Shown: positions 3,771 through 34,790, counted from the stretch's first letter. The stretch: 34,790 bases of DNA from a virus (IMGVR_UViG_3300048592_001035:1-34790); one strand, 5' to 3'. Made by a program: numbers and translations. Notes: a model not told the origin generated them from the sequence alone.

Positions 3771-5699
3771 ATGCCCCGCAAGCCGGCCCCCGCCATCGCG
3801 CGCACCATCGCCCTGTGCTACATCCGCAAATCGTTCACCCGCGACGAACACGACACGCTCAGCCCCGAGCGCCAGCGCGCCAACATCGAGGCCGTCTGCG
3901 CGCGCAACGGCTGGCTCGCCGAGTGGTACGAGGACGCCGAGGGCCACAAGTCCGGGCGCAGCGAGGCCGGACGGCCGGCGTGGCTCGCGCTCAAGCGCCG
4001 TCTGTCCGACCCGCGCATCGTCGCCGTCGTCGCCAACGACCTCGCCCGCCTGCACCGGCGCGCCTGGCACGTCGGGCGCACGATGGAAGAACTCGACGCG
4101 CACAACATCCGCCTCGTCTTCGCCGCGCCGGGCCGCGAGTTCGACACCTCCACCCCGCACGGGCGCATGCTCATCCAGTTCATGGCCATGCACGACGAAG
4201 CCTACGCCGAGGATGTCGCCACCCGCCAGAAGGACAGCATCGCCTACCGCAAATCGCAGGGCAAGTCCGTCGGCATGCCGCCGTTTGGCACGGCGCGCAA
4301 CGCCGCCGGCTACCTCGAACCCACCCCCGCCGGCGCGTGGCTGCTGCCCGGCGGCGCGTACCGCGCCGGTGAGGCCGGCGCGCCGCCGGCGGAAGGCGCG
4401 CAGTGGTTCGGCTACTTCGACGCGCTCACGCGCATCTACGCGCTCTACGCCGAAAACCGGCTGGGCATCAACCGGCTCGCCTACCAGATGTCGGCGGAGG
4501 GCTGGCGTTTCCGCGACCGCAAGGGCCAGCCGCGCCCGTTCACCCGCGACGACCTGCGCCGCATCGTCGCCAACTGGCGCGAGTACGCCGGCCTGCCCAC
4601 CGTCGGCAAGGCCGTCGCCAAAAACGCCAGCGCCCTCGATCATCCCAGCGCCGCCCTCTACGACACCGGCCGCGCCGTGCTGCCGCTGGAGCTGCTGCGC
4701 GCGGTGGCCACCGTGCAGGAAGCGCGCAGTTTCACGGTGCATCCGCTCGGCGCGCGCGCCGCGGCGCGTGTCTATCCGCTCAGCGGCATGGTCTACTGCG
4801 CCCACTGCGAGGCGCAGGCGGCGCACAACGCCGGCCCGCGCTCGCGCCTGAACGGCGTGTCCCAGCGCGGCTACATCACCTATCGCCATGTGGAAGGCCA
4901 CCAATGCGGCGCGAAGGCCCGCTCGGTGCCGCTGGCGCTGATTGAGGGGGATGTCGCGCGGCTGATCGGGCTGCTCAGCCTCAGCGAGGATTCGCTCGAC
5001 CTGCTCACGGCGCTGGCGCAGGAGTCACTGCCCGATGCGACGCGCGAGGATGACGCGCGCTTCGAGCGCGAGCGCGCCCAGCAGCTCGCGCGCCTGACGC
5101 GCAAGGCGAATGCCAACCGGCATTTGTACAGTGAAGGCGAGCTGACGCGCGAGGAATTCGAGCGCAAACGGGCGGAGATTGCCCGCGAAACCGCCTACTG
5201 GCACAACCGCACCACCGACACGGCGCAGATGACGCTGGAGCTGCGCCAGTGCGTGGCGGCGCTGGGGCAGGTGGCGCAGGAGTATCCGTCCGCCTCACCC
5301 GAGGCGCAGCAGGCGCTCGTGCGCAGCCTGTTCGATCACCTGGTCTACGACCTCGACCAGCGCCAGATTGTCGATTTCCGCCTCAAATCGTGGGCGGATC
5401 GCTATATGGTGCTGCGCGCGGCGCTGTACCAGGGCGAAAATCAAGGCTTTCTACGTCCTGTGCTCCATACGAGGCTCGACAGCACACGACGTAGACTGCT
5501 CGATGCCCTCGCCGACGCCACCCGCGCCTACCTCGATCAGCTCTACGCCGCCCTCGCCCGCCCCGTCTCCACGGCCCAGCGCAACGAGGCCATCCGCGCC
5601 CGGGCCGCGGCCGGCGAGGCGCAGGCCGCGCTGGCGCGCGAGTACGGCATGAGCGGCCAGCGGATTTACCAGATCGTGCGCCGCATTCACCACCGTTGA
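3771..5699 (+). CDS. int: Large serine integrase (site-specific recombinase)
   Basis: The product is 642 aa and catalyses phage integration between attP and attB. The N-terminal resolvase domain (about 12-160) has ALCYIRKSFT with the catalytic serine near residue 21, followed by SPERQRANIE. The recombinase domain covers about 165-300. A zinc-ribbon region follows with CAHC near 343-346 and HQC near 379. Only three cysteines are visible, and a histidine may replace the fourth ligand. A charged coiled coil lies at about 430-480, and the C-terminal tail has a Hin-like HTH (AALAREYGMSGQRIYQIV). ATG 3771 follows a gggagag ribosome site; upstream in-frame codons lack homology. attP is probably close by but cannot be located from sequence alone. 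Confidence 0.93.
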   Translation: MPRKPAPAIARTIALCYIRKSFTRDEHDTLSPERQRANIEAVCARNGWLAEWYEDAEGHKSGRSEAGRPAWLALKRRLSDPRIVAVVANDLARLHRRAWHVGRTMEELDAHNIRLVFAAPGREFDTSTPHGRMLIQFMAMHDEAYAEDVATRQKDSIAYRKSQGKSVGMPPFGTARNAAGYLEPTPAGAWLLPGGAYRAGEAGAPPAEGAQWFGYFDALTRIYALYAENRLGINRLAYQMSAEGWRFRDRKGQPRPFTRDDLRRIVANWREYAGLPTVGKAVAKNASALDHPSAALYDTGRAVLPLELLRAVATVQEARSFTVHPLGARAAARVYPLSGMVYCAHCEAQAAHNAGPRSRLNGVSQRGYITYRHVEGHQCGAKARSVPLALIEGDVARLIGLLSLSEDSLDLLTALAQESLPDATREDDARFERERAQQLARLTRKANANRHLYSEGELTREEFERKRAEIARETAYWHNRTTDTAQMTLELRQCVAALGQVAQEYPSASPEAQQALVRSLFDHLVYDLDQRQIVDFRLKSWADRYMVLRAALYQGENQGFLRPVLHTRLDSTRRRLLDALADATRAYLDQLYAALARPVSTAQRNEAIRARAAAGEAQAALAREYGMSGQRIYQIVRRIHHR

Positions 5700-10251: not shown

Positions 10252-10382
10252 CTGCCAGTTGGCAGCCGGTCGCCGAATGCCCCCGTCAGCCCGCTGATCA
10301 GCGCCTCGACCTCCACGGTCTCGCGCACTACAACCCGGCGCCGCTCCACAAACGGCAGCTCAATCACGCGCTCGTCAGTCAT
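10248..10382 (-). CDS. Small late protein, 44 aa
   Basis: ATG 10382 follows the preceding tail gene's stop by one base. The product is charged, with two basic clusters (VERRRVVVRE), and ends in TGA at 10250-10248, overlapping the next ATG. No family recognised. Its place after the tail-tip paralogs suggests a virion or assembly role. Confidence 0.5.
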   Translation of the reverse strand: MTDERVIELPFVERRRVVVRETVEVEALISGLTGAFGDRLPTGR

Positions 10383-10383
10383 C

Positions 10384-10896
10384 TCAAATCTCCCACACCA
10401 GCAGCCGCGCGCTCAGCAGCTTGAAGTTCGCGCCCGCGTTGTTGAACGTCTGGTACTCCACCTGCACCGTGTTGGCCCCGTCCGCCAGCACGAGCGGCGT
10501 CACCATCGTCAGGCTCGTGCGCGTCAACATCGCCGTGATCGTCCCGCTCACCGGCCCGTGCTGTATCCACAAATGGCCCGTCTCGCTCACCTCCGGCACG
10601 CCGTTGACCACGAAGCGGAACTTGTTATCGACCCACTGGTCTTTCACGTCCGCGTTCAGGTTCACCGTGAACAGCGCCACCGCCGCCGGCCCCACGGCCG
10701 GCGTCACGCTCGCCGCCGTCGGGAAAAAGGCCGCCCACGCACCCAGCGTCGTGCCCATCGTCGTCGCCGTGCGCGTCACCTGCGCGCTGGCGCGCGCCGC
10801 CAGCGCGTTCAAATCGCGCACGATCTGGTTGTAGCGGTTGGTCGTGATCACCGCCCCTTCGGCCAGCTCGTAGGCCGCCCTGAATTGCATGCTCAT
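10384..10896 (-). CDS. Tail-tip protein paralog 3
   Basis: The product is 170 aa, third of three tandem paralogs. Shared pattern: an N-terminal NRYNQIVRDLNALAAR helix, a T-R-x(6)-G-x(4)-W segment, LFTVNLNAD, LWIQHG, a strand ending VQVEYQTF and the C-terminal LLSARLLVWEI. ATG 10896 lies in an ATGA overlap with the upstream copy, so the longer upstream frame extension is noncoding. Beta-rich proteins repeated at the end of a siphovirus tail operon are likely surface, baseplate or receptor-facing proteins; this is positional inference. Confidence 0.7.
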   Translation of the reverse strand: MSMQFRAAYELAEGAVITTNRYNQIVRDLNALAARASAQVTRTATTMGTTLGAWAAFFPTAASVTPAVGPAAVALFTVNLNADVKDQWVDNKFRFVVNGVPEVSETGHLWIQHGPVSGTITAMLTRTSLTMVTPLVLADGANTVQVEYQTFNNAGANFKLLSARLLVWEI

Positions 10897-11417
10897 ATTT
10901 CCATCCCCACCAGCTGCGCCCCCAGGATCGGCGCGGTGTTGGCGTCCGACGACAGCCCGCGGTACTGCGCGCGGATGTCGTTGGGCCCGTTCACCGGCAG
11001 CGTCACCAGCGTCGCCATCTGCATCGTCAGCGCGTGGTACAGCGACAGCGGGCTGCCCGTCATCGTCGCGTGCCGCGTGTCGATGTAGCCCACATAACCG
11101 ATGTCCGGCCCGCTGTCCGACTGCACACGAATGCGAAACTCCATGCGATGCCACATGTTGATGTTGGCCGCCTCGAAGTTCACCGTCAGCAGCAGCACCG
11201 CCTTCAGGCTCACCAGCGGGTCGAGCGTGAAGCTCGCCGGCGCTGAAAACAGGTCTTTCCAGCTCGTCCCCGCCGTCAGATTGCCCGCCCCGCGCGTGAG
11301 CGAACCCTGCGCCCTGAACGCCAGCGCATTTGCGTTGATGATCAGCCGGTTCCAGTCCGTCGGCGTCACCACGTAGTCCGCCGGCTTCTCCGTCTGCGCC
11401 ACGAACGCAATCGTCAT
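10893..11417 (-). CDS. Tail-tip protein paralog 2
   Basis: The product is 174 aa, second of the tandem set. It keeps the pattern TDWNRLIINANALAFR, SLTRGAGNLTAGTSWKDLF, LLLTVNFEAANINMWHR, a middle beta region and the C-terminal QLVGMEI. Of the three it has the longest central insert (VQSDSGPDIGYVGYID). Overlaps its downstream paralog by ATGA. Probably assembles with the other two in the tail tip. Confidence 0.72.
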   Translation of the reverse strand: MTIAFVAQTEKPADYVVTPTDWNRLIINANALAFRAQGSLTRGAGNLTAGTSWKDLFSAPASFTLDPLVSLKAVLLLTVNFEAANINMWHRMEFRIRVQSDSGPDIGYVGYIDTRHATMTGSPLSLYHALTMQMATLVTLPVNGPNDIRAQYRGLSSDANTAPILGAQLVGMEI

Positions 11418-11418
11418 G

Positions 11419-11934
11419 TCACAGCTCCTTCACCAGCAGCCGCGCGTTGTGCGTCTTGAACTGGTGCGCCGGGTCGGTGCTCGTCTTGTACTGCCCCTGC
11501 AGGTAGTTCACCCCGTCCACCGTCGGCAGCGTCAAAATCGCCAGCACCACCGCGCTCGCCGAGTGCGTCACCGTCCCGCCCACGTTGCCGTGGGCCGCGC
11601 TCCATCTCACCTGCAGGTCCGTCAGCACGTCCGCGTTCAGCTTGAGCGTGAAATAGGTCTCACTCCAGAAGTGCATGCTGTCGCTGTTGATATTCACCGT
11701 CAGGATGGCCAGCACCCGCGCGCTCACGCGCGGGATGAGCGCGATGTTCTGCGGGTCGGTGAACAGGCTCGTCCACAACCCGTTGCTGGAACCATACGTC
11801 GTCGCGCCGCGCGTGAGCGTCTCGATCTGCCGGCCCGCGCCCAGCGCATTCACGTTGCGCACCATCTGGTTCCACTCGGCCTCGGTCACCACGTGCGCCG
11901 CGCCAATCGTCGTCATCGCCTGGAAATCGACCAT
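11419..11934 (-). CDS. Tail-tip protein paralog 1
   Basis: The product is 171 aa, first of the tandem set, starting at ATG 11934 just after the hub gene stop. It shows TEAEWNQMVRNVNALGAG, TLTRGATTYGSSNGLWTSLF, AILTVNINSDSMHFW and the C-terminal HNARLLVKEL. The order helix, TRGA, W-x-LF, LTVN, H-x-W, LLV-x-E is conserved across all three copies while loops differ, consistent with duplication followed by surface divergence. Confidence 0.72.
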   Translation of the reverse strand: MVDFQAMTTIGAAHVVTEAEWNQMVRNVNALGAGRQIETLTRGATTYGSSNGLWTSLFTDPQNIALIPRVSARVLAILTVNINSDSMHFWSETYFTLKLNADVLTDLQVRWSAAHGNVGGTVTHSASAVVLAILTLPTVDGVNYLQGQYKTSTDPAHQFKTHNARLLVKEL

Positions 11935-11936
11935 GC

Positions 11937-13403
11937 CTACGCCGCCTCCACCGGTTCGAGGTACAGCGTCACATCGATCAGCCGGTGGCCCTCGCTCGCC
12001 GACCAGTCGCAGCCGATGACCAGATAACCCCCGTCGTGCGCCAGCCGCGCGCTCGTGATGCGCACCCGTGTCCCGAACGGGATCGTCATCCACGCAATCG
12101 CGTCCGCCGTCGTGCGCGCGCGCAGCTCGATGCGCTCGATACGGTTCTCGCTCACGCTCGCCGCCGCCAGCTCGCGCGCCGCCCGCGCATTCGCCGTCGC
12201 CTGGTCATCGATCAGCGCGCAGTCCAGCGTGCGCGAGCGCAATCCGTAGCGGCTGATGTCGTACTCCGCCCGCTTGCGCGCCTCCACCTGGTCATTGGAC
12301 AAGAGCGCCGTGCCCGCGATTGCGATGTTGGTCAGGTCGATGGCGTAGGCCGCATAGTTGCGCACGCGCAGCGTGCCGCCCGTCGCCTTCACCTCGCCCA
12401 CCCACTCCCAGAACAGCCCGCCGTCGCTCGCGCTCAGCGTCACCGCCACCTGCTCGGCCGCCACCACCCGATCCGCCTCGCCATGCTTGAAGCGCACCGC
12501 CCAGTCGCGCTGCTCGTTCACGCCGAAGTTCACCGGGCTGGCGGGGTCGAGCGTCCACAACGTCACCCCCGCCTCCCAGCGCTTCGGATACCAGGTCAGC
12601 CGCACATCGTTGGCGTACTGCGCCCCGTTCTGGCCGCTCGCGCTCACGATCTCGGCGTCGGTGAACGTCCGCGCCGGCGCGCCGGCGCGCGCGGCGTCCA
12701 GCCACCCCTGCGCGTACACCTCCAGCACATTATCGCGGCCCCATACCGCCCTGCCCGCCTCGGCCTTCATCAGCTCGGCCAGCGCGCCCAGCACATCCAG
12801 ATCGCCGCCGCCCGCCACGCCGTAGCCGCCCGCCGCCACCAGCGGCTTCCAGCCCGTGCCGGTGAAACGCGCATACGCGTTCACCGGCAGCCCGCCGCCC
12901 GTCGCCGCGCCCGAGCCGTACAGCTTCGTGTTCACGCCCAGCGCCGCATAGCCCAGCATCCAGTACCCGCCGGCGCTCGCCAGCGGCACCTCCGCCAGCA
13001 GCGCCTCGACCGCCGCCTTCGTCGTCGTGTTCTTCAGCAGCGCCGATTCCGTCGGCACGAACAGGTCGCCGCGCATCGTCGACAGGCTGATTGACACGTA
13101 GGGTTGCTCGGCCGCATAGTACGCCGCGATCTCCTCGATGCGCCCGGTGAACAGCAGCTCGTGCGTGCCACTCACCCGCACCTTCGCCCACACGCCCGCG
13201 CGCAGGCCCGCCGGCGCGGTGTACGCGCCGTCGCCGTTGACCACCTCCACCGTCGTGCGCGCATTGTCCGCCACGTACGTGCCCACACCCTTGAAGCCGA
13301 ACTGCCCGGCGATGCGCTGAATGCGCCCGGCAGGGATGACCGTCTCGTACACCCCGTCGACATCCGCGTCCAGAATGACTTCGACCGGCACATACGCGGC
13401 CAT
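11937..13403 (-). CDS. Tail hub / tail-associated protein
   Basis: The product is 488 aa. Residues about 5-95 (ILDADVDGVYETVIPAGRIQRIAGQFGFKG; VRVSGTHELLFTGRIEEI) are typical of the first beta domain of tail hub or Tal-like proteins that cap the tube after the tape measure. The C-terminal part (RTTADAIAWMTIPFGTRVRITSARLAHDGGYLVIGCDW) resembles the closing beta domain of such proteins. It starts at ATG 13403, which shares a base with the tape measure stop (TGATG); the in-frame extension upstream is the shadow of the tape measure gene. No peptidase motif is evident. Confidence 0.72.
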   Translation of the reverse strand: MAAYVPVEVILDADVDGVYETVIPAGRIQRIAGQFGFKGVGTYVADNARTTVEVVNGDGAYTAPAGLRAGVWAKVRVSGTHELLFTGRIEEIAAYYAAEQPYVSISLSTMRGDLFVPTESALLKNTTTKAAVEALLAEVPLASAGGYWMLGYAALGVNTKLYGSGAATGGGLPVNAYARFTGTGWKPLVAAGGYGVAGGGDLDVLGALAELMKAEAGRAVWGRDNVLEVYAQGWLDAARAGAPARTFTDAEIVSASGQNGAQYANDVRLTWYPKRWEAGVTLWTLDPASPVNFGVNEQRDWAVRFKHGEADRVVAAEQVAVTLSASDGGLFWEWVGEVKATGGTLRVRNYAAYAIDLTNIAIAGTALLSNDQVEARKRAEYDISRYGLRSRTLDCALIDDQATANARAARELAAASVSENRIERIELRARTTADAIAWMTIPFGTRVRITSARLAHDGGYLVIGCDWSASEGHRLIDVTLYLEPVEAA

Positions 13404-16000
13404 CAGCGCCCCCTGTCGCGCAGCGCGCGCTCCACCAGCGCCGCCAGCTGGTGCGTGTCCTGGCTGTAGTTGTTGATGACGAACTGCGACGCGCGCCCGC
13501 CCTGCTGCGTCTCGCGCCGGTTGAGCACCGCCTCGCCCGCGTGCAGATAGAACAGCCCGTCGCGCTGAATGCTCCCGCCCGTCGCCAGTCCCGTGATCGT
13601 CTTGCCGCCGATGCGCTTCGGGTTGCCCGCCGGCGGGACGTTGATATTCACCGGCGGCGGCACGATGCGGTCGGTGTTGGGGCGGTAGCCCCAATCGCCC
13701 GGCCCCGGCACGCCGTTGAACGCCTGCGCGATATTGCCCGCCGGCGGCGTCACGCCCATGCCCGTGTTGATGATCGGGTTCAGGAACACCGGCACATCCA
13801 CCGTGAAGCCGGCGCTCAGCGCCTCCTGCATGTACGCCTTGATCGGCGGCAGCACCTCGCCGTAAATCTCCAGCGCCTTCGCCGCGTCGAACAGCAGCTG
13901 GTAGTCCTCGTGCCCGCTCGCCAGCGCCAGCGCGTTCGCCATCGCCGTGTAAATCGACGAGTCGACATCGTCGCTGAATTCCGGCCGCGTCAGCACCTCG
14001 TTGATCGAGGCGCGCAGGCTGGTCGATACGCTCTCGCCGAAGCGGTTGGTCGAGATGTACTTCGTGTCGACGTCCACCACGCCCGCCGCCATCTGCGCGT
14101 TCAGCTCCGCCTCGATGGCCGCTACGAAGTCGTTCTCGCGCATGTCGTTTTCAATCGAGGTCTTCAGCGTGTCGCCGACCCCGATGCCCGCCGTCTCCAG
14201 CTGGCGAAACACCTCCGCCATGTCGGGATTGAAAATCCCGATCAGGGCGGTCAGCCCCGGCGAGTCCTGAATGCGCTGCAGAATGTCCGCGTAAATCAGC
14301 CCGATCTGCGCCGTGAACTGGTCGCCCGCCTGCTTCAGGTCTTCCACCGCCAGCGAGATGACAATCGGCAGGTTCGTGAAGATCGCGCCGATGCCCGCAA
14401 TCGCGTCCTTCAGCCCCGTCCAGTCCGTCAGCCCGAGGTCGTTGAGGATGGCGATCATGCCGTCGACGGGCGCGGCGGCTATCGCCGCGATGCCCGTCAC
14501 GATGTTGCCCATCCCGGTCGCGAACTTCTCCGCCGCGCCCTGCAAATCGCCCGAAATCAGCAGGCCGAGGCTTTCGGCCAGATTGCCGAACCCGTCGACG
14601 ATGCTCTGCAAGCCCTCGCCCAGCAGCGGCGAGCGCAGCGCGCCCACAATCGTGAAGATGGCCGCCGCCACCAACAGCGCCGGCAGCGCAATCGGCGCGA
14701 GCGCCGCCGGCAGCGCCGTCAGTCCCGTGATCAGCGTCCCGCCCACCGCCACAATTTTTCCGATACCCGCGATGATGGGGCCAACAATCAGTGCGACAGC
14801 CCCAAGCGTTGTGAGCCCAATGGCGAGTGCCCCGAACGCGCCCGCGATGCCAGGGTTTTCGGTCACCCATGCCGAAAGGCCCGTCAACTTGTCCGTGAGC
14901 GTCTCGATGACGGGTGAAATCGTGTCTGCTACAGCCTCGCCAAACACCGTCGTAAGGGTATCTTTGGCGTTTTCAAGCTGGCTCATCTTGAAGGCGAGCG
15001 TGTCTTGCTTCCCCGCAAAAATATCGGCGGCAGACGTGGCCGCTTCCATCTTGCGGGTCATTTCGTCCCAGCCGCCCGCAGAGACCAATGCGGAAGCACC
15101 GCTTCCGCCAAACGCCCCGAACAGCGCGGAAAAGGCGTCATTCAACTCTTTCGCTGTATATTCCCCGCTGGACATGCGTTCTTGCAAATCATCAAAGACG
15201 GCGCTAAGCGGGCGCAGATTCTCGTCCGTATCGTACAAGCTCAGATTGAGCGATCTGAGAGCGCTCTTGACCGATTCGGTTGGCTGGTAAAGATTCATCA
15301 GCATGCTTCGCAACTGTGTGCCGCCTTCAGCGCCTTGCATGCCCGCGTCGCTGAAGGTCGCAAGAATTGCGACAACCGTATCCAGATCGAGGCCCATGCG
15401 TGCCGCGGTTGGGCCGACATTGGACATGCCATCTGCAAGGTCTGCGACATCCGCTCGGCTCGCGCCTGCGGCGCGAGCCAGTGCTTCAATAATGTTATTT
15501 GTGTCGGCGCTCGTGAGATTGAATTGGGCCATGGAAGTGGTCAGCAGGCCGGCTGCCTGCGCCATATCCAGATCGCCTACCGTAGCGAGCTTGGCGGCGG
15601 CGGCCGCCATTTCCATGGCATCAGCGGCCCCGTAGCCGCCTTTTGTAAATTCAAGGATGGCGTTACCCGCCTGCGTGGCCGAAAACATCGTTGTCTGTGC
15701 CATGGCGCGGGCCGCAGCTTCGACCATCCCCATCTGATCGGCTGCCACGCCACCATACAATTGAATGTCCGTCATGACGGAGTCAAAACCGGCAAAGCTC
15801 GAAATGGCTTGCTCGGCGTAGTCAGCGAGCGGCCCAAAGGCTTGGGTCATTTGCCCGCCAAAGGCCGTGACCCGCTGACCAAGCTGCTGTGTTGTCTGGC
15901 TGAAACGTTGAACGAGGGAATCGGCTTGTTCCATGCCGGAAGCGAGGCGAGAAACGTCCGCGGCAATCTGCACCACTACAGCATTTGTGATGTCAACCAT
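13403..16000 (-). CDS. Tail tape measure protein
   Basis: The product is 865 aa and sets tail length inside the tube. Residues about 60-290 match the TP901-type tape measure core (FDSVMTDIQLYGG, EFTKGGYGAADAMEMAAAAAKLA, GLLTTSMAQFNLTSADTNNIIEAL, QGAEGGTQLRSMLMNL). Hydrophobic segments follow at about 405-470. The start is ATG 16000, ten bases after GGAGG; the earlier in-frame GTG at 16009 touches that GGAGG. Codon use changes inside the gene: from about 14750 to 16000 the third positions are mixed, while the rest is strongly G/C, suggesting a recombinant gene. Unusually, it is separated from the G/GT chaperone genes by an opposite-strand cassette. Confidence 0.93.
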   Translation of the reverse strand: MVDITNAVVVQIAADVSRLASGMEQADSLVQRFSQTTQQLGQRVTAFGGQMTQAFGPLADYAEQAISSFAGFDSVMTDIQLYGGVAADQMGMVEAAARAMAQTTMFSATQAGNAILEFTKGGYGAADAMEMAAAAAKLATVGDLDMAQAAGLLTTSMAQFNLTSADTNNIIEALARAAGASRADVADLADGMSNVGPTAARMGLDLDTVVAILATFSDAGMQGAEGGTQLRSMLMNLYQPTESVKSALRSLNLSLYDTDENLRPLSAVFDDLQERMSSGEYTAKELNDAFSALFGAFGGSGASALVSAGGWDEMTRKMEAATSAADIFAGKQDTLAFKMSQLENAKDTLTTVFGEAVADTISPVIETLTDKLTGLSAWVTENPGIAGAFGALAIGLTTLGAVALIVGPIIAGIGKIVAVGGTLITGLTALPAALAPIALPALLVAAAIFTIVGALRSPLLGEGLQSIVDGFGNLAESLGLLISGDLQGAAEKFATGMGNIVTGIAAIAAAPVDGMIAILNDLGLTDWTGLKDAIAGIGAIFTNLPIVISLAVEDLKQAGDQFTAQIGLIYADILQRIQDSPGLTALIGIFNPDMAEVFRQLETAGIGVGDTLKTSIENDMRENDFVAAIEAELNAQMAAGVVDVDTKYISTNRFGESVSTSLRASINEVLTRPEFSDDVDSSIYTAMANALALASGHEDYQLLFDAAKALEIYGEVLPPIKAYMQEALSAGFTVDVPVFLNPIINTGMGVTPPAGNIAQAFNGVPGPGDWGYRPNTDRIVPPPVNINVPPAGNPKRIGGKTITGLATGGSIQRDGLFYLHAGEAVLNRRETQQGGRASQFVINNYSQDTHQLAALVERALRDRGR

Positions 16001-16029
16001 AATTGCCACACCTCCGCTTAACTGTGACT

Positions 16030-16069
16030 ATTATATCTCTCAGTTGACCAACATGCTTGCCATTTTCTC
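16030..16069 (-). promoter_or_regulatory. Leftward promoter and operator for the tape measure unit
   Basis: On the minus strand a perfect TATAAT (16035-16030) lies 30 bases before ATG 16000. The operator 12-mer GGTCAACTGAGA (16049-16038) sits immediately upstream, in the -35/-10 spacer. In plus orientation the half-site GACC, linker aacatgct and TGCC continue to 16061, a degenerate composite operator. No good -35 hexamer is present. The promoter would restart late transcription after the inserted cassette. Confidence 0.5.
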
Positions 16070-16077
16070 AAAAGGGG

Positions 16078-16107
16078 TTGCAATTATGCCGCATAGGGAG
16101 ATATAAT
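16078..16107 (+). promoter_or_regulatory. Rightward promoter of the cassette, probably leaderless
   Basis: TTGCAA (16078-16083), an 18-bp spacer and TATAAT (16102-16107). Only six bases separate the -10 box from ATG 16114, so the transcript would start at or next to the start codon. It diverges from the leftward promoter at 16030. Confidence 0.6.
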
Positions 16108-16113
16108 CAGGTT

Positions 16114-16305
16114 ATGACCGTGAAAGAAGCCGCTCAACTACTGGGGGTTAGTCCCCGACAGGTTCGTCACATGATTGCATGTGGCATCCTGCGTGCTGAA
16201 AAGCACGGGCGCGACTATTGGATCGAGCCGGAAGCGGTCAAGGCGGCTCAAAATCGGCGCGGCCCCGGAAGGCCGAGGAAGGAGAACCCCGGGAAAAGCG
16301 GGTAG
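16114..16305 (+). CDS. Excisionase/MerR-like HTH protein, 63 aa
   Basis: MTVKEAAQLLGVSPRQVRHMIACG is a standard HTH_17/excisionase-type helix-turn-helix, followed by a wing (GRDYWIEPEAVKAA) and a basic tail (RRGPGRPRKE, AT-hook-like GRPRK). ATG 16114 is the domain start; the frame extends upstream but that part overlaps the promoter. There is no Shine-Dalgarno, consistent with a leaderless message. First gene of the cassette inserted in the tail operon; may regulate the cassette or the divergent tape measure promoter. Confidence 0.8.
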   Translation: MTVKEAAQLLGVSPRQVRHMIACGILRAEKHGRDYWIEPEAVKAAQNRRGPGRPRKENPGKSG

Positions 16306-16326
16306 CAGCACAATTTCGAAGAAAAA

Positions 16327-16357
16327 GCCCCGGCGGGTGCGCTAACACCCCCGAGGC
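16327..16357 (+). promoter_or_regulatory. Imperfect intergenic stem-loop
   Basis: GCCCCGGCGGGTG and CACCCCCGAGGC fold with one bulge and one mismatch around cgctaa. No U-tract follows. It lies between the HTH gene and 16387-16995 and may attenuate transcription or stabilise the downstream message. AAGGAGG at 16374-16380 then serves ATG 16387. Confidence 0.35.
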
Positions 16358-16386
16358 CATGGTCAGAGCCCCAAGGAGGCCCTAAC

Positions 16387-16995
16387 ATGTTTAATTCTAC
16401 ACCCACCCCCGCGTTTGAAACCATTGACGACCGCGCCGAAGCGATGGAGACGCTCCCCGAGCGTGCCTTGCTGCTTATTGACGCGCTCCTCGCGGCCCAT
16501 TTCCTCGGCACTTTCGACGAAGAAGCCCCCGCCCTGCTCGCTGCCTACTACGCGCAGCATTTCGCGCCCGCCTTCCCCCAGTGGATGCACAAGCTGGTGG
16601 AAGTGGACGAGGCCCGCAAGGCGGCCGAGGCCGCCGCGCAGGCGGAAGCCGACGCGCAGGCGGCGGCGATGCAGCGCCTGCTCGGCGCGAACCTCGTCGA
16701 GGTGCTCGCGTTCCTCTTGGACGTGGCCCTGCCCGCGCCGGAGACGAACGAGATTGTGCTTGATGGCGTGCACTTCTCCCTTGACCGCCACGACATTGAG
16801 CCCTTCAGCCGCAGCGAGGCGGGCGAAGTCACCCACTTCCACTTTACGCTCCGCGTCGCTGGTGACGTGCAGCCCGACGCGCCGCGTTATTTCCAGTTCG
16901 CTTCCATCTGCGGGGACGACGGCCTGCGCACGGAGATGGAAAAGCTTGCCGAGCACGTCATGTACCTCGTGACCTTCTCCCACAGCGCCGCCTAA
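16387..16995 (+). CDS. Hypothetical protein, paralog of the early gene at 29027
   Basis: The product is 202 aa. Residues about 66-125 (WMHKLVEVDEARKAAEAAA through LPAPETNE) are almost identical to the N-terminus of the protein at 29027-29665, and the DNA is identical for 96 bp (16581-16676). The first 65 residues are unique and the C-terminal 75 are similar but diverged (FHFTLRVAGD versus FHFTLVVRAGD). Both genes end HSAA and are followed seven bases later by the same type of GC hairpin. No known domain; the alanine-rich segment is helical. AAGGAGG precedes the ATG by six bases. Confidence 0.78.
   Translation: MFNSTPTPAFETIDDRAEAMETLPERALLLIDALLAAHFLGTFDEEAPALLAAYYAQHFAPAFPQWMHKLVEVDEARKAAEAAAQAEADAQAAAMQRLLGANLVEVLAFLLDVALPAPETNEIVLDGVHFSLDRHDIEPFSRSEAGEVTHFHFTLRVAGDVQPDAPRYFQFASICGDDGLRTEMEKLAEHVMYLVTFSHSAA
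16581..16752. repeat. Intragenic duplicated segment, copy A
   Basis: It aligns to 29044-29215 at a constant offset of 12463. The first 96 bases are identical; differences then cluster at 16677-16720, before near-identity resumes to gagacgaacgag. Such a block inside otherwise diverged genes points to recent gene conversion or duplication. It could also recombine and delete or invert the intervening DNA. Confidence 0.95.
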
Positions 16996-17001
16996 TACGA
17001 G

Positions 17002-17023
17002 CGGGGCGGCGCAAGCCGCCCCG
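17002..17023 (+). promoter_or_regulatory. GC stem-loop with GCAA tetraloop
   Basis: CGGGGCGGC pairs perfectly with GCCGCCCCG around GCAA, a GNRA-type loop. It lies seven bases after the stop of 16387-16995 and 14 before the HNH gene. The paralogous gene at 29027 has an equivalent hairpin at 29672-29693. Confidence 0.5.
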
Positions 17024-17036
17024 ACTGGAAACTCCC

Positions 17037-17768
17037 ATGGACGACTTGAAGCGATGCACAAAGTGCGGCGAGTGGAAGCCACTAAACGAGTTCTACAGAG
17101 ACCGGTCCAAGGCGCTTGGGCTCACTTCCCGGTGCAAGCCATGTTGCAAAACGCAGGCGCAACAAACCGACTCGGCCAGAGCCGACAAAAAAAGTGCGCG
17201 TCGACGTGAGTACTATTTGGAACACCGCGACGACATATTAGCCCGCGACCGCAAGTACCGGTCCTCAAATTCAGAGACGATCCGTGCGCGCCGACGCGAA
17301 AACTATGTCGCCAACCGTGAAAAAGAGCATGAGCGAGATCGCCGATACAGAGCGGCCAATGCCCAAAAGATCAGGGACTATCAGCGCCAGTTCTATGCCT
17401 CCAATCGAGACAAAAGGCGAGTTATCAGCCACCGCCGCCTAGCCTGCAAACGCGGTCTTCCCGACGCTTTCACCGCCGCGGACTGGCAAGCGGCGCTTGA
17501 CCATTTCGGCGGCTGCTGTGCGGCCTGTGGCCGTCCGCCCGGCCTCTGGCACACGATTGCCGCCGACCACTGGATACCGCTTTCCTCACCCAACTGCCCC
17601 GGAACCGTGCCGGAAAACATCGTGCCCCTCTGCCACGGCGTCGATGGCTGCAATAACTCCAAGTCCAACCGTCCCGCTGGCGAATGGCTCGCGCAAAAGT
17701 ATGGCCCGCGCAAAGCACGGGCCATTCAGAAACGTATCGAGCGTTGGCTTAAGACACGACATCTTTAG
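17037..17768 (+). CDS. HNH endonuclease with N-terminal zinc ribbon
   Basis: The product is 243 aa. Residues 7-36 carry CTKC and CKPC, a zinc ribbon. A long Arg/Lys/Tyr-rich helix (about 50-130, repeated RRRENY-like units) probably contacts DNA. The C-terminal domain has CAACG, ADHWIPLS (catalytic His near 176), a central Asn in ENIVPLCHG and a second Cys pair in CNNSKSN, a typical HNH fold. Base composition is less G/C-rich than the structural genes, and it sits in a cassette on the opposite strand, so a free-standing homing nuclease is likely. A role in packaging is possible, but it lies far from the terminase genes. Confidence 0.85.
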   Translation: MDDLKRCTKCGEWKPLNEFYRDRSKALGLTSRCKPCCKTQAQQTDSARADKKSARRREYYLEHRDDILARDRKYRSSNSETIRARRRENYVANREKEHERDRRYRAANAQKIRDYQRQFYASNRDKRRVISHRRLACKRGLPDAFTAADWQAALDHFGGCCAACGRPPGLWHTIAADHWIPLSSPNCPGTVPENIVPLCHGVDGCNNSKSNRPAGEWLAQKYGPRKARAIQKRIERWLKTRHL

Positions 17769-17833
17769 GCTTGGAACTTCGCCCCTCATGTTAGGATTGG
17801 ATCCATACGTCGATCAGAAAAGGAGATCGTTTG

Positions 17834-18328
17834 ATGCGCTCAATCCTCGTAGTGCTGTTCGCTGTCACGTTGGTGCTTGCAATCCCGGCCATTGCTCAGG
17901 ACGGTGTTGAAGACTGCGCGCCGCGAAGCTTCGCGGCGGCGCTGGCGTATGCTGCGGACACATTGGAAGATGTAGCCCCTGAGCGCCTGGACAGCGCGCT
18001 TCTGGCCGTCGTCAACACGCTACAGGTGTATCGCGCCTATTGCGCCGGGCTGTCGTTTCAGGGCGCGGATGGGGACGTCGTGATTGGCCCAGTGCAGCTA
18101 GCTGCGGGGACATGGATCAACGAAGGGCAGTTCGACGGCCCGGGGTACATCGAGTTCACCGCGCTCACGGACGGCTGCGGGCCCGACCTTGATGGCATGG
18201 GCGTTAGCTCGATGGGGGGCGGTGATTCCGCTTCGCAGACGGTGATAGAGGCACGGGTGGACTGCGACTTGCTGATTGAGGTCAAAACGAACGGCGCTTG
18301 GGAGTTCCGCTTTACACGTGCACGCTAG
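17834..18328 (+). CDS. Secreted protein with signal peptide
   Basis: The product is 164 aa. The N-terminus MRSILVVLFAVTLVLAIPAIAQ is a classical signal peptide with likely cleavage after AQ. The mature part has five cysteines (EDCAPR, RAYCAG, DGCGPD, VDCDLL), beta-rich C-terminus and a Gly/Ser loop (GVSSMGGGDS). AAAAGGAG precedes ATG 17834. Carried in an opposite-strand cassette within the late operon, it fits the pattern of a moron expressed from the prophage and acting at the host surface. Function unknown. Confidence 0.78.
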   Translation: MRSILVVLFAVTLVLAIPAIAQDGVEDCAPRSFAAALAYAADTLEDVAPERLDSALLAVVNTLQVYRAYCAGLSFQGADGDVVIGPVQLAAGTWINEGQFDGPGYIEFTALTDGCGPDLDGMGVSSMGGGDSASQTVIEARVDCDLLIEVKTNGAWEFRFTRAR

Positions 18329-18361
18329 TCTTGCCTCTCAGTCGATCCGCAGATGGAACAC

Positions 18362-18383
18362 ACCCCCGGCATAGGCCGGGGGT
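18362..18383. terminator. Bidirectional hairpin between convergent genes
   Basis: ACCCCCGGC (18362-18370) pairs with GCCGGGGGT (18375-18383) around atag. It separates the rightward cassette from the leftward GT gene, ending at 18384, so it may stop both transcripts. There is no strong U-tract on either side. Confidence 0.5.
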
Positions 18384-18868
18384 TCAGCGTTCCGCCCGCT
18401 CCGCCCGTCGTTTCTCACGTGCGTTGAAGAAGGCGCGCATACTGATCAGGTCGCTGAATGGCAGATTATCCAGCACATCAAACGTCCACCCCAGCAGCTC
18501 GGCCAGCACAACCCGCTCGACTATCCACGGATCATCAAGTGGCATTTGCTCTGACCCGAAGACCAGGTTGAGGTAGATGGATTTTTCTACCTGCTGCGTT
18601 GTTTTCCCGAGGCGTCCACCAGCCCCTCGATCAAGTCGGCGAACTCGCCGTAGTAGGGCAGGCGCATGTACGTCTCCGGGTCGTCCGGCGCGCCCCATTC
18701 CGGCGGGCAGTCCGTGATGGCGACGGCGAGCGTCTTCGCCACCGCCTCGATGTCGTTCTTGCGGCTGGCCTCCATAAAATCGGCCATCTGCCGCGCGGTC
18801 AGCGCCTTCAGGTGGTACGTCACCTGCTCCGCCGCGCTCAGCCGCACTTCCTCAATCTGTTTCGCCAT
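18384..18868 (-). CDS. Tail assembly chaperone GT, -1 frameshift product
   Basis: The long form reads residues 1-89 in the frame of the short chaperone, slips at GGGAAAA (18608-18602) and continues for 72 residues in the -1 frame (TTQQVEKSIYLNLVFGSEQ to REKRRAERAER), giving about 161 aa. The second frame has no convincing start of its own and is protein-like only after the slip site. This G/GT arrangement, between tail tube and tape measure, is conserved in long-tailed phages; the long form binds the tape measure protein during tail assembly. Confidence 0.82.
18587..18868 (-). CDS. Tail assembly chaperone G, 0-frame product
   Basis: The product is 93 aa: MAKQIEEVRLSAAEQVTYHLKALTARQMADFMEA, a mostly helical protein of the size of siphovirus gpG chaperones. 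GGAG precedes ATG 18868. Termination at 18587 gives the major form; a -1 slip at codons 88-89 yields GT. It lies directly downstream of the tail tube gene after a hairpin. Confidence 0.82.
   Translation of the reverse strand: MAKQIEEVRLSAAEQVTYHLKALTARQMADFMEASRKNDIEAVAKTLAVAITDCPPEWGAPDDPETYMRLPYYGEFADLIEGLVDASGKQRSR
18602..18608 (-). promoter_or_regulatory. -1 programmed frameshift slippery heptamer
   Basis: The minus strand reads TCG GGA AAA CAA in the 0 frame, i.e. G GGA AAA, an exact X XXY YYZ heptamer. It resembles the GGGAAAG site of the lambda G/T genes. After slippage the frame reads GGG AAA ACA ACG and continues open to 18384. Confidence 0.85.
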
Positions 18869-26851: not shown

Positions 26852-26885
26852 TGATTATACCTTTTGTCAGTTGACAAACATAATC
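26852..26885. promoter_or_regulatory. Late promoter and strongest operator copy
   Basis: TGTCAGTTGACA at 26865-26876 is an exact TGTC-N4-GACA operator, extended to TTGTCAGTTGACAA and flanked by GATTA (26852) and TAATC (26881-26885), a larger imperfect palindrome. On the minus strand a perfect TATAAT (26859-26854) lies beside it, 31 bp before the terS start, placing the operator in the promoter spacer. The linker aacataat follows, but the second 12-mer is degenerate. Confidence 0.65.
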
Positions 26886-26940: not shown

Positions 26941-27849
26941 ATGAATGAGACGGCGATCAGCTGGACGGACAAGTCCTGGAATTTCGTGGCGGGGTGCTCA
27001 AAGGTGAGCGACGGCTGCAGGCACTGCTACGCCGCGACGCTCAGCGCGCGCTACGGCTGGACGCACAAGCCGTGGACCGTTCAGAACGAGGCCGAGAATG
27101 TTGTCCTCAAGCCGCACAAGCTCGCGGAGATTTACCGCGAGCGCAAGCCGGCGCGCATCTTCGTCAACAGCATGTCGGACATGTTCCACCGCGTCATCCC
27201 CGACTGGTTTCTGGCTGCGGCGTTCAACATCATGCTCGACAACCCGCAGCACACCTTCCAAATCCTCACCAAGCGGCCCGAGGCCGCGCAGGACTGGCAC
27301 GAGCGCTACCAGGCCGCCGTGCTGTCCCCCGCCTACCAGCGCTTCATCAACGCGCAGCCGGACAACCGCATGATTGCGGCGCTGGCGCGCCGCCATGCCA
27401 GCCCGTGGGCGCGCCACATCTGGCTCGGCGCAAGCGTCGAGGATACGCGCGTCATCGGCCGCGTCGCCGCCCTGCGCGCGGTGCCGGCGAAGGTGCGCTT
27501 CATCAGCGCCGAGCCGCTGCTCGGTCCGTGGCCGGCATACACCGACCTGGACGGCATCCACTGGGTCATCGTCGGTGGCGAGAGCGGGACACATCTGAAC
27601 TCCCCCGACAACCCGCGCTGGATGCGTCAGGAGTGGGCGCGGGGCGTGCGCGATCTGACCGTCGGCCAGGGCATCCCGTTTTTCTACAAGCAGGACTCCG
27701 GCCCGCGCGCCGGCGCGCGTCCGTACCTGATCGAGGAAGACGGCAGCCGCTGGGTCTGGCAGCAGTGGCCCGACAACCCCGCCCCGCCCTATCCGTGGGG
27801 ACAGGTGCCGCCCAGGGAGGAGCCGCCGGCGCAAATCGCGCTGTTTTGA
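26941..27849 (+). CDS. DUF5131 (phage Gp37/Gp68-like) protein
   Basis: The product is 302 aa. ISWTDKSWNFVAGCSKVSDGCRHCYA matches this family exactly, with C19, C26 and C29 forming a CX6CX2C cluster reminiscent of radical-SAM iron-sulfur sites. Further family motifs are IFVNSMSDMFH, FQILTKRPE, IWLGASVED, VRFISAEPLLGP and WVIVGGESG. The biochemical function is not established; nucleic-acid or base modification has been considered because of the radical-SAM resemblance. Here it is the first gene of a short rightward unit facing the terminase operon. Confidence 0.9.
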   Translation: MNETAISWTDKSWNFVAGCSKVSDGCRHCYAATLSARYGWTHKPWTVQNEAENVVLKPHKLAEIYRERKPARIFVNSMSDMFHRVIPDWFLAAAFNIMLDNPQHTFQILTKRPEAAQDWHERYQAAVLSPAYQRFINAQPDNRMIAALARRHASPWARHIWLGASVEDTRVIGRVAALRAVPAKVRFISAEPLLGPWPAYTDLDGIHWVIVGGESGTHLNSPDNPRWMRQEWARGVRDLTVGQGIPFFYKQDSGPRAGARPYLIEEDGSRWVWQQWPDNPAPPYPWGQVPPREEPPAQIALF

Positions 27850-27880: not shown

Positions 27881-27982
27881 ATGATGACGGATGAAACGCT
27901 CGCGTTGTGGGTGGTGTGGCTGGCGGTGACCGCCTTCGGGCTGATCGCCCTCTGGCGCGAGGAAAGGAATTTGAGGAGATGA
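27881..27982 (+). CDS. 33-aa single-pass membrane peptide
   Basis: The frame starts ATGATG at 27881, at the predicted transcription start, and its stop overlaps ATG 27979 of the HTH gene (ATGA). The peptide is a short acidic start, one transmembrane helix with five Trp (LWVVWLAVTAFGLIALW) and a basic end (REERNLRR). The strong promoter, coupling and clean hydrophobic design support it. Possible membrane toxin, exclusion peptide or simply a translational leader; function unknown. Confidence 0.6.
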   Translation: MMTDETLALWVVWLAVTAFGLIALWREERNLRR

Positions 27983-28245
27983 AGCTGTACAGCACCCGTG
28001 AAGCCGCCGATGCGCTCGGCCTGACCATTGGCACGGTCAAACATCATGTCTACAAGTCCGGCCGGCTGCACCCGCAGCTGGTCGCCAATCAGTGGGTGTT
28101 CACCGAAGACGACCTGCGCGCCTTCAAAGCCTGGCAGCAGGAGCGCGCGGCCGTGGCCGCGCTGTCGCCCGAAGAAAAGAAGGCGCGCCACCGCGCCCAG
28201 CAGGCGGCCCACATGCGCCGGCGCGCCCGCGCGTCCAAATCGTAG
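27979..28245 (+). CDS. HTH_17/excisionase-like DNA-binding protein
   Basis: The product is 88 aa. MKLYSTREAADALGLTIGTVKHHVYKSGRL is a MerR/excisionase-type HTH, followed by a wing (LVANQWVFTEDDLRAFKAW) and a basic tail rich in Arg and Ala. AGGAG lies before ATG 27979 and the start is coupled to the membrane peptide. As an Xis-type or Cro-type regulator it could affect integration or the neighbouring switch region. A second small HTH_17 protein lies at 16114. Confidence 0.82.
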   Translation: MKLYSTREAADALGLTIGTVKHHVYKSGRLHPQLVANQWVFTEDDLRAFKAWQQERAAVAALSPEEKKARHRAQQAAHMRRRARASKS

Positions 28246-28319: not shown

Positions 28320-28556
28320 ATGGACCTCACCGAGCGCGCAGCGCGCCTGGCGGCGCTCTCCCCCGCAGAACTGGACCTGATCGACCACCTAATCGCGGCG
28401 GCGACTGTCGGCGTCCATGATGATGCCGTCGATGACCTGGCGCACATGTTTGGGCAGCGCCTCGATGAGTTGCGCGCGCAGCAGGATGCCGGGCGAAGCC
28501 GACGTCAGCTTGCCGAGATCGTCGCGATATTCCGGGTACGCCAGCGCGATGAGTAA
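28320..28556 (+). CDS. Possible 78-aa ORF antisense to the repressor
   Basis: Its first 23 codons lie outside the repressor gene and encode a protein-like start (MDLTERAARLAALSPAELDLIDHLIAAA). The remainder is antisense to the repressor 3' end. GGAG lies eight bases upstream of the ATG and a possible SOS box precedes it. The antisense overlap could make the tail of the frame merely open by chance, so coding is uncertain. Confidence 0.3.
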   Translation: MDLTERAARLAALSPAELDLIDHLIAAATVGVHDDAVDDLAHMFGQRLDELRAQQDAGRSRRQLAEIVAIFRVRQRDE

Positions 28557-28946: not shown

Positions 28947-28976
28947 TTGACATTGGTTATACTCATCAGCTATAAT
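28947..28976 (+). promoter_or_regulatory. Early rightward promoter (consensus sigma70)
   Basis: Perfect hexamers TTGACA (28947-28952) and TATAAT (28971-28976) with an 18-bp spacer. Transcription would start near 28983, inside the operator pair at 28983-29014, a design well suited to tight repression. The first gene downstream starts at 29027. Confidence 0.85.
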
Positions 28977-29014: not shown

Positions 29015-29026
29015 AGGAGAACAGTC

Positions 29027-29665
29027 ATGAGCGCGTACCCCGAGTGGATGCACAAGCTGGTGGAAGTGGACGAGGCCCGCAAGGCGGCCGAGGCCGCCGC
29101 GCAGGCGGAAGCCGACGCGCAGGCGGCGGCGATGCAGCGGCTGCTGGGCGAAAATCTGGTCGAGGTGCTCGCGTTCCTGCTGGACGTGGCCCTGCCCGCG
29201 CCGGAGACGAACGAGGTCGAGCTGGATGGCGTGAAGTTCGCCCTCGGCCCGCATGACGTGGAGCCGATTGTCCGCGACGAGGCGGGCAACATCACGAACT
29301 TCCATTTCACGCTCGTGGTGCGGGCCGGCGACGGCAACACTTTCCTCACGCAGGCGCGCGCGTTCCAGTTCGGCTCGCTGATCGGCGTCGACCTCGCGCC
29401 GCTGGCGGCGCACGTGCTCACGCTGGTGTCCATCCAGCGCGCGCTTGGCGCGCTGGATGGGCTGACCGTCGGCGATCTGCTCGACGACTGCGAAGCCGCC
29501 AACCCGGTCGTCGCCAACGCGGCCCACATCCTCGCCGCCGACTTCGAGCTGCACGGCCTCGCCGCGGCCAACACGATGCTGGGCGTGGCGCTCGATCACG
29601 GCGACCGTGTGCATGAAGCCGCCGTCGTGCGCGACTACCTGCTCAGCCTTCATTCCGCTGCCTAG
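29027..29665 (+). CDS. First early gene product, paralog of 16387-16995
   Basis: The product is 212 aa. Residues 5-63 are nearly identical to the middle of the 16387 gene product; residues 70-110 are similar; the last 80 (ALGALDGLTVGDLLDDCEAANPVVANAAHILAADFEL) are unique, helical and acidic. CAGGAG precedes ATG 29027 by eight bases. As the first gene behind the strongest promoter and operator it may be a regulator or host-takeover protein, but no domain is recognised. Confidence 0.78.
   Translation: MSAYPEWMHKLVEVDEARKAAEAAAQAEADAQAAAMQRLLGENLVEVLAFLLDVALPAPETNEVELDGVKFALGPHDVEPIVRDEAGNITNFHFTLVVRAGDGNTFLTQARAFQFGSLIGVDLAPLAAHVLTLVSIQRALGALDGLTVGDLLDDCEAANPVVANAAHILAADFELHGLAAANTMLGVALDHGDRVHEAAVVRDYLLSLHSAA
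29044..29215. repeat. Intragenic duplicated segment, copy B
   Basis: Partner of 16581-16752. Bases 29044-29139 are identical to 16581-16676. See copy A for interpretation. Confidence 0.95.
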
Positions 29666-29671
29666 TCCGTC

Positions 29672-29693
29672 CGGGGCGGCCTGCGCCGCCCCG
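29672..29693 (+). promoter_or_regulatory. GC stem-loop after the first early gene
   Basis: CGGGGCGGC and GCCGCCCCG pair perfectly around ctgc, seven bases after the stop codon, the same stem sequence and distance as at 17002-17023. A T6 run at 29706-29711 is 13 bases further on, too far for a standard terminator, so attenuation or message processing is more likely. Confidence 0.45.
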
Positions 29694-34636: not shown

Positions 34637-34790
34637 GCCGCGCGCAGTGCGTCGCAGTGCGTCACAACCATTTTGCGACGCACTGTGACGCTCTGACGCT
34701 CTGTAGATCTCTTTATTTCTCTCTCTATATATCTCTGAGAGAAGAAAAGGAGCAGTGCGTCAGAGCGTCAGAGCGTCACAACCCCCTTTT
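34633..34790 (+). other. Open frame running through the iteron region, doubtful gene
   Basis: ATG 34633 overlaps the primase stop (ATGA). The frame stays open to the window end and, on the closed circle, to TGA at 199-201, giving 74 codons. The predicted peptide merely translates the repeated boxes (CDALTLC, RHNPLFCDAL). The coupling is suggestive, but a repeat-derived frame without other support is probably not a gene. Confidence 0.2.
34645..34790. repeat. Right copy of terminal repeat with two extra boxes
   Basis: Bases 34657-34790 repeat 1-134. Just before it, inverted boxes CAGTGCGTCG (34645-34654) and CAGTGCGTCA (34655-34664) extend the iteron array up to the primase stop codon. On the circle the array therefore spans roughly 34645 to 216, about 230 bp. 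Confidence 0.88.

Follow-up and report, generated by a model that had tools for sequence, protein, structure and literature searches.

An HNH nuclease cassette between the chaperone and tape measure genes of a siphophage and the compositionally foreign tract in which it lies

In siphophages, the chaperone genes are generally followed directly by the tape measure protein (TMP) gene. In the phage genome considered here, four plus-strand open reading frames (ORFs) at 16114-18328 separate the minus-strand chaperone from the minus-strand TMP gene, which raises the question of how these genes came to lie there and what arrived with them.

The window, i.e., the whole stretch of DNA that was analysed, is an IMG/VR record of 34,790 bases (IMGVR_UViG_3300048592_001035). 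Its first 134 bases recur at its end with 99% identity (1-134 and 34657-34790), so the genome is circularly closed at about 34.66 kb. Inside this end repeat, a 43-nt imperfect inverted repeat (TGTGACGCTCTGACGCTCTG...) forms a long hairpin at the contig join. The siphophage structural genes run on the minus strand, leftwards from the small terminase gene (26823), and most of the remaining genes lie on the plus strand. A protein of the serine recombinase family (Resolvase domain, 1e-22) suggests that the phage is temperate. No close relative of the window was found by nucleotide search in an annotated phage collection, and scans of a genome collection returned no close prophage and only distant TMP matches.

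Elsewhere in the window, a DUF5131 gene (26941-27849, 7.6e-69) is divergent from the small terminase gene. Two small plus-strand ORFs (27979-28245 and 28320-28556), the first of which is HTH_17-like by eye, precede the early operon and may encode the switch or excisionase of the phage itself. Two minus-strand ORFs downstream of the tail genes (10384-11154 and 11419-12093) have a direct repeat of 109 nt between them (10378-10486 / 11413-11521, 71% identity), a tandem duplication.

The interrupted junction and an uninterrupted relative

The genes and hairpins around the junction are the following:

18587-18868, minus strand: G chaperone ORF
18384-18608, minus strand: T part of the G/T chaperone, translated after a -1 frameshift at GGGAAAA (18608-18602)
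18362-18382: hairpin (CCCCCGGC-ATAG-GCCGGGGG, no T run) in the gap at which the cassette and the T gene converge
17834-18328, plus strand: small protein with an N-terminal signal peptide
17037-17768, plus strand: HNH endonuclease with an N-terminal Cys4 motif and a C-terminal D-H...N...N-x-S-K core
17002-17023, plus strand: GC-rich hairpin after orf2, whose 9-bp stem is identical to that of the hairpin after the early paralog (29672-29693)
16387-16995, plus strand: orf2, a 202-aa paralog of an early protein
16114-16305, plus strand: HTH_17 / excisionase-like DNA-binding protein of 63 aa with a basic GRPRK tail
13403-16000, minus strand: TMP gene (PhageMin_Tail, 9e-38) with its ATG at 16000-15998 and GGAGG upstream

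The intergenic limits of the cassette are thus 16001-18383, and the compositionally foreign block is larger, at about 14752-18607. The first-pass annotation had described an HTH protein, a paralog of an early gene, an HNH nuclease, and a signal-peptide protein in reverse orientation, and all four are present on the plus strand. The HTH protein matches Pfam HTH_17 with an E value of 5e-9, above the curated cutoff, and its gene is probably leaderless, as the ATG lies 6 nt after the -10 element. For the signal-peptide protein, searches for relatives found none and the fold model is weak and unreliable (pLDDT 47). In PADLOC, the HTH protein matched HTH domains alone (best E 6e-8) and the other cassette proteins gave weak matches, so that a classification of the cassette as a defence system was not adopted. 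The hairpin that had been proposed to bound the cassette at 18362 is present and very stable (-38 kcal/mol for 18400-18340 on the minus strand, z -4.3), but it carries no T run and so does not have the form of a canonical intrinsic terminator in either direction.

That the chaperone is a genuine G/T pair is suggested by a second ORF in the -1 frame and by slippery heptamers at the equivalent place in the window (GGGAAAA) and in a close relative (GGGAAAG). This relative, L005 (IMGVR_UViG_3300048838_000588; 7,377 bases), was found by a major tail protein scan; alignment searches with the major tail protein, TMP, and capsid gave this 7.4 kb fragment as their sole match, and a single-protein TMP scan of viral contigs returned nothing. 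The gene order of L005 matches that of the window from the capsid gene through the gene after TMP, with protein identities of about 49-70%. L005 lacks the cassette with its flanking genes intact, and its T overlaps TMP by 8 nt (TMP GTG at 3794, T TGA at 3799-3801). The T-TMP junction is therefore polymorphic for the presence of the cassette, as judged against one relative, and the comparison with a cassette-free phage that the first-pass annotation had proposed supports an insertion to the same extent. The annotated record of Paenibacillus phage Fern also shows two small genes and then the TMP gene, with no cassette between them. The Fern TMP is only 29% identical to that of the window.

In view of the uninterrupted L005, the Fern record, and the general arrangement in siphophages, the cassette is likely an insertion rather than the ancestral order. 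One comparison alone cannot polarise the change, so that the cassette might be ancestral and have been lost from L005 by deletion. Such a loss appears very unlikely, since Fern and siphophages in general have the chaperone and then TMP with no cassette, and since the composition of the block is foreign to the window, whereas that of L005 is uniform.

A foreign composition tract in intact reading frames

The discussion of composition refers to two further features:

14752-18607: putative imported (allelic replacement) tract comprising the T part, the cassette, the control region, and the 5' half of the TMP gene
29024-29665, plus strand: early-region paralog of orf2 behind a consensus promoter (TTGACA-18-TATAAT, -10 at 28971-28976)

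The GC content at third codon positions (GC3) is about 0.85-0.95 in most of the phage genes compared with 0.64-0.73 in the HTH, HNH, and signal-peptide genes, and T (0.68) and the beginning of TMP are equally low. Among 126 sixty-codon blocks of the genome, the 13 with the lowest GC3 all fell within 14.75-18.6 kb. In TMP, the change-point is located at codon 415, near 14752 (interval 14719-14755), with a GC3 of 0.65 before and 0.93 after the break (LLR 53.9); none of 2000 permutations exceeded an LLR of 10.3 (p<=0.0005). A second break occurs at codon 87 of G, near 18607 and thus at the slippery site, where GC3 drops from 0.94 to 0.68 (LLR 15.2, p<=0.0005). The change-point test on the L005 TMP showed no significant GC3 break (p 0.29).

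Both breaks lie inside reading frames whose integrity and homology are preserved, as would be expected after recombination between related phages. It is well supported by this tract that the imported unit was not a bare cassette but measured about 3.9 kb and included the T segment and the first ~415 codons of TMP. The earlier description of an inserted cassette therefore stands as far as insertion is concerned, which is likely, and falls short on the extent of what was imported. The tract exceeds the cassette on both sides, as a homing gene would lead one to expect, and ordinary recombination would give the same picture.

The relationship of orf2 to an early gene, which had also been proposed from the first reading, is real and partial. 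At the DNA level, orf2 is 86% identical to 29032-29314 over 283 nt, and at the protein level the two are 67% identical over 142 aligned columns; both end in HSAA, but they differ at the N-terminus and by an additional segment in the early protein. Over its first third, the shared region is nearly identical between the two DNA sequences, with 3 differences among the initial 96 bases, and the differences increase from there on. At 0.93-1.0, the GC3 of this near-identical segment is as high as elsewhere in the phage, but in the N-terminal part of orf2 it is 0.67-0.77. The simplest reading of this contrast, taken together with the near-identity, is that the middle segment of orf2 probably results from a recent local gene conversion after the cassette had arrived. 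Searches for further relatives of this two-member family found none.

Sharp composition breaks within conserved genes could also arise if the assembler had joined two co-occurring, related phages in conserved regions, so that the record would be a chimera of metagenomic strains. This is highly improbable, as the genome closes via its 134-nt end repeat and the reading frames are intact. Moreover, the near-identical segment and the hairpin stem that orf2 shares with the early gene of the same genome tie the cassette to this genome.

Promoter-like sites in the divergent region

Between the cassette and TMP, and at the head of the structural operon, the following sites were identified:

16078-16107, plus strand: cassette promoter-like site, TTGCAA-18-TATAAT
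16030-16048, minus strand: TMP promoter-like site, TATAAT at 16030-16035 with GTCAACTGA upstream at 16040-16048 and no recognisable -35 (2/6)
16030-16107: dyad of the divergent region, an exact inverted repeat of GAGATATAAT (16030-16039 / 16098-16107)
26854-26875, minus strand: promoter-like site of the main structural operon upstream of the small terminase gene, TATAAT and GTCAACTGA with no -35

Against an expectation of 0.9, the window contains five copies of TATAAT, four of which lie at operon heads: at 28971 (plus), at 26859 (minus, before the small terminase gene), at 16102 (plus, cassette), and at 16035 (minus, TMP). L005 has no TATAAT at all. At the two plus-strand sites, a -35 hexamer is found with 6/6 (28971) and 4/6 matches (16102). 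The divergent promoters that had been claimed at 16030 and 16078 are thus borne out as promoter-like TATAAT sites, the one on the minus strand being without a -35.

The nine-base GTCAACTGA is the longest string common to the TMP and terminase-side sites, and 0.4% of shuffles reach this length. This common string suggests that the TMP site could be of the structural-operon type; the likeness is suggestive only, because the spacing from GTCAACTGA to the -10 differs by 3 nt between the two sites. A TTGTCA-AC-TGACAA palindrome (26854-26880) lies just upstream of the structural-operon -10, and upstream of the TMP -10 only its GTCAACTGA part is present.

The first-pass annotation had further proposed that a new promoter restores TMP expression. 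This agrees with a well-placed promoter-like site with a ribosome-binding site at a junction where L005 has no such site, but the site lies within the imported block. From this position, the TMP promoter probably came with the block rather than evolving afterwards.

The GAGATATAAT repeat covers both -10 elements, and 0.5% of shuffles reach its length of 10 nt. A second, imperfect dyad of 16 nt lies in the same region, which is a candidate for a shared operator of the adjacent HTH protein. It has therefore been considered whether the cassette is a regulatory island, in which the HTH protein would bind the dyads of the divergent region and control the cassette and TMP promoters and hence tail expression. 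Both dyads and the adjacent, probably leaderless HTH gene speak for such an island, yet the exact repeat could merely reflect common promoter sequence and the HTH family also fits an excisionase, so that we regard it as unlikely. It is still more doubtful that the HTH protein governs, through the shared divergent operator region, the expression of TMP and the subsequent tail genes, by which a mobile nuclease cassette would have brought half of the tail operon under its own regulator.

The nuclease, the origin of the cassette, and known parallels

The HNH protein matches a PHROG family named endonuclease VII (E 1e-24), a likeness it has in common with F-CphI and the Endo VII-type (DHHRN) enzymes, which lack the central asparagine of HNH nucleases (PMC6083498). 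In an alignment of seven sequences, D177, H178, N194, N206, S208, and K209 are invariant and correspond to the classical HNH core, which is thus intact (D177-H178, N194, N206-x-S208-K209). Unlike the DHHRN enzymes, the protein has kept the central N194 and has no DHH (ADHWIPL...N194...N206); it is therefore an HNH nuclease, and an Endo VII-type identity is ruled out on the motif. An intron-encoded nuclease is likewise ruled out, as the gene lies between two complete genes on the opposite strand. A PDB sequence search with the HNH protein gave no meaningful match.

A viral scan identified 19 loci that encode relatives of this nuclease, several of which are lone insertions at different structural-gene junctions. 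The closest (L009, 43-47% identity) lies on the strand opposite to the structural genes, between a gene in the tail-terminator position and a major-tail-like gene, and that of L010 (41-52%) follows a head morphogenesis gene. In L011/L017 (about 31-34%), the HNH gene is found exactly between the chaperone (phrog_344, 7e-11) and the TMP gene. The L011 phage is unrelated, its TMP being only 26% identical to that of the window over part of the length, and its nuclease (31% identical) is on the same strand as TMP; an isolated-phage relative of L011 with an empty site was looked for and none was found. Further HNH relatives occur outside structural modules, e.g., among replication genes. L009 also carries a glycosyltransferase gene (L009:3124-4293, phrog_2170, 5e-34) between capsid-like and head-tail connector genes, which is another cargo gene inside the structural module of a phage with one of the closest HNH homologs.

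The reading that we favour, at a probability of roughly 0.6, is that a homing-type HNH cassette entered through a homologous replacement of about 3.9 kb together with a separate TMP promoter. It is based on a relative without the cassette (L005), on the composition block with its edges, on the promoter-like sites, and on the recurrent insertion of the HNH family at gene junctions. The donor would have been a related phage of lower GC3, one crossover falling in the G/T slippery region and the other within TMP, and the replacement would have carried the free-standing HNH cassette to the chaperone-TMP junction. There, the cassette would be transcribed from its own promoter on the opposite strand, and the separate promoter of structural-operon type, presumably active late, would drive TMP and the genes beyond it. 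The tail genes would thus stay expressed even though the coupling of chaperone and TMP is broken, and the HTH protein may control the divergent promoters. Insertion and the mosaic tract are well supported parts of this reading, and a spread driven by the nuclease can reasonably be inferred from its family and its position. Against homing, ordinary homologous recombination would leave an identical tract, and three of the cassette genes are unexplained by a homing nuclease.

The first-pass annotation had proposed a moron-type insertion expressed from the prophage. As a classic moron, the locus would be a lysogenic-conversion cassette of a secreted protein and an HTH regulator that is bounded by the 18362 hairpin and expressed via the site at 16078, with the HNH gene as a passenger. 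The cassette resembles temperate-phage morons in its position between operon genes, its opposite orientation, its composition shift to a GC lower than that of the phage, and a candidate secreted product with a signal peptide. Furthermore, its own sigma-70-like promoter with a -35 (TTGCAA-18-TATAAT) is autonomous at sequence level, and the serine recombinase suggests a temperate phage. The proposal thus holds in that an insertion is likely, with L005 free of the cassette, but it differs from morons in that the imported tract includes structural genes and the 18362 hairpin has no T run; moreover, one of the four genes is a nuclease of a junction-inserting HNH family. A plain moron is therefore possible but rather unlikely, and a homing or recombination origin would fit better, given the import of about 3.9 kb with structural genes and the recurrence of HNH relatives at structural-gene junctions.

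The favoured homing-type entry has parallels in known systems. Free-standing phage HNH homing genes (intronless homing; PMC10448857, PMC2988022) likewise lie between essential genes, at boundaries of exchange, with flanking DNA transferred along, and homing endonuclease genes have been described at boundaries of phage genetic exchange and also as interrupting TMP genes (PMC10448857). Unlike these, the putative homing gene of the window is one of four in a cassette that has a promoter of its own. Among the cluster O mycobacteriophages, an HNH gene lies between chaperone and tmp in Corndog, Firecracker, and YungJamal and is absent in Dylan and Catdawg (PMC4351075); the Firecracker record shows this arrangement. 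As with the window and L005, there are uninterrupted sister phages, in which the start of tmp overlaps with the stop of the chaperone gene. In YungJamal, an HTH regulator also heads a group of four leftward genes that lie between those for the major tail protein and the chaperone, and a leaderless leftward promoter with a terminator has been described beside the major tail gene of the Corndog group. Cluster O thus also has opposite-strand genes led by a DNA-binding protein and a leaderless promoter within the tail operon, there with a nearby terminator. These HTH genes lie one junction upstream, whereas the window has HTH and HNH in one cassette at T-TMP, and the HNH gene of cluster O shares its strand with tmp and has a sequence unrelated to that in the window. 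Homology of the HNH protein to that of Firecracker and of the HTH protein to that of YungJamal was looked for and not found, so the Corndog-type cases are parallels of arrangement only.

The kind of event is already known, and the locus is a well-marked example of phage mosaicism. What is new is the combination of the opposite strand, HTH and HNH genes in one cassette, the import of half a TMP gene, and a candidate promoter of structural-operon type. The locus shows how a tightly coupled, frameshifting chaperone/TMP pair can be separated without obvious loss of function, as the transferred DNA includes a putative promoter for the gene that was cut off. Nuclease genes seem to have landed repeatedly at the chaperone-TMP junction in unrelated phages (the window, L011/L017, and the Corndog group), and, to judge from the composition breaks, transfers of this type may bring along half of the gene that determines tail length.
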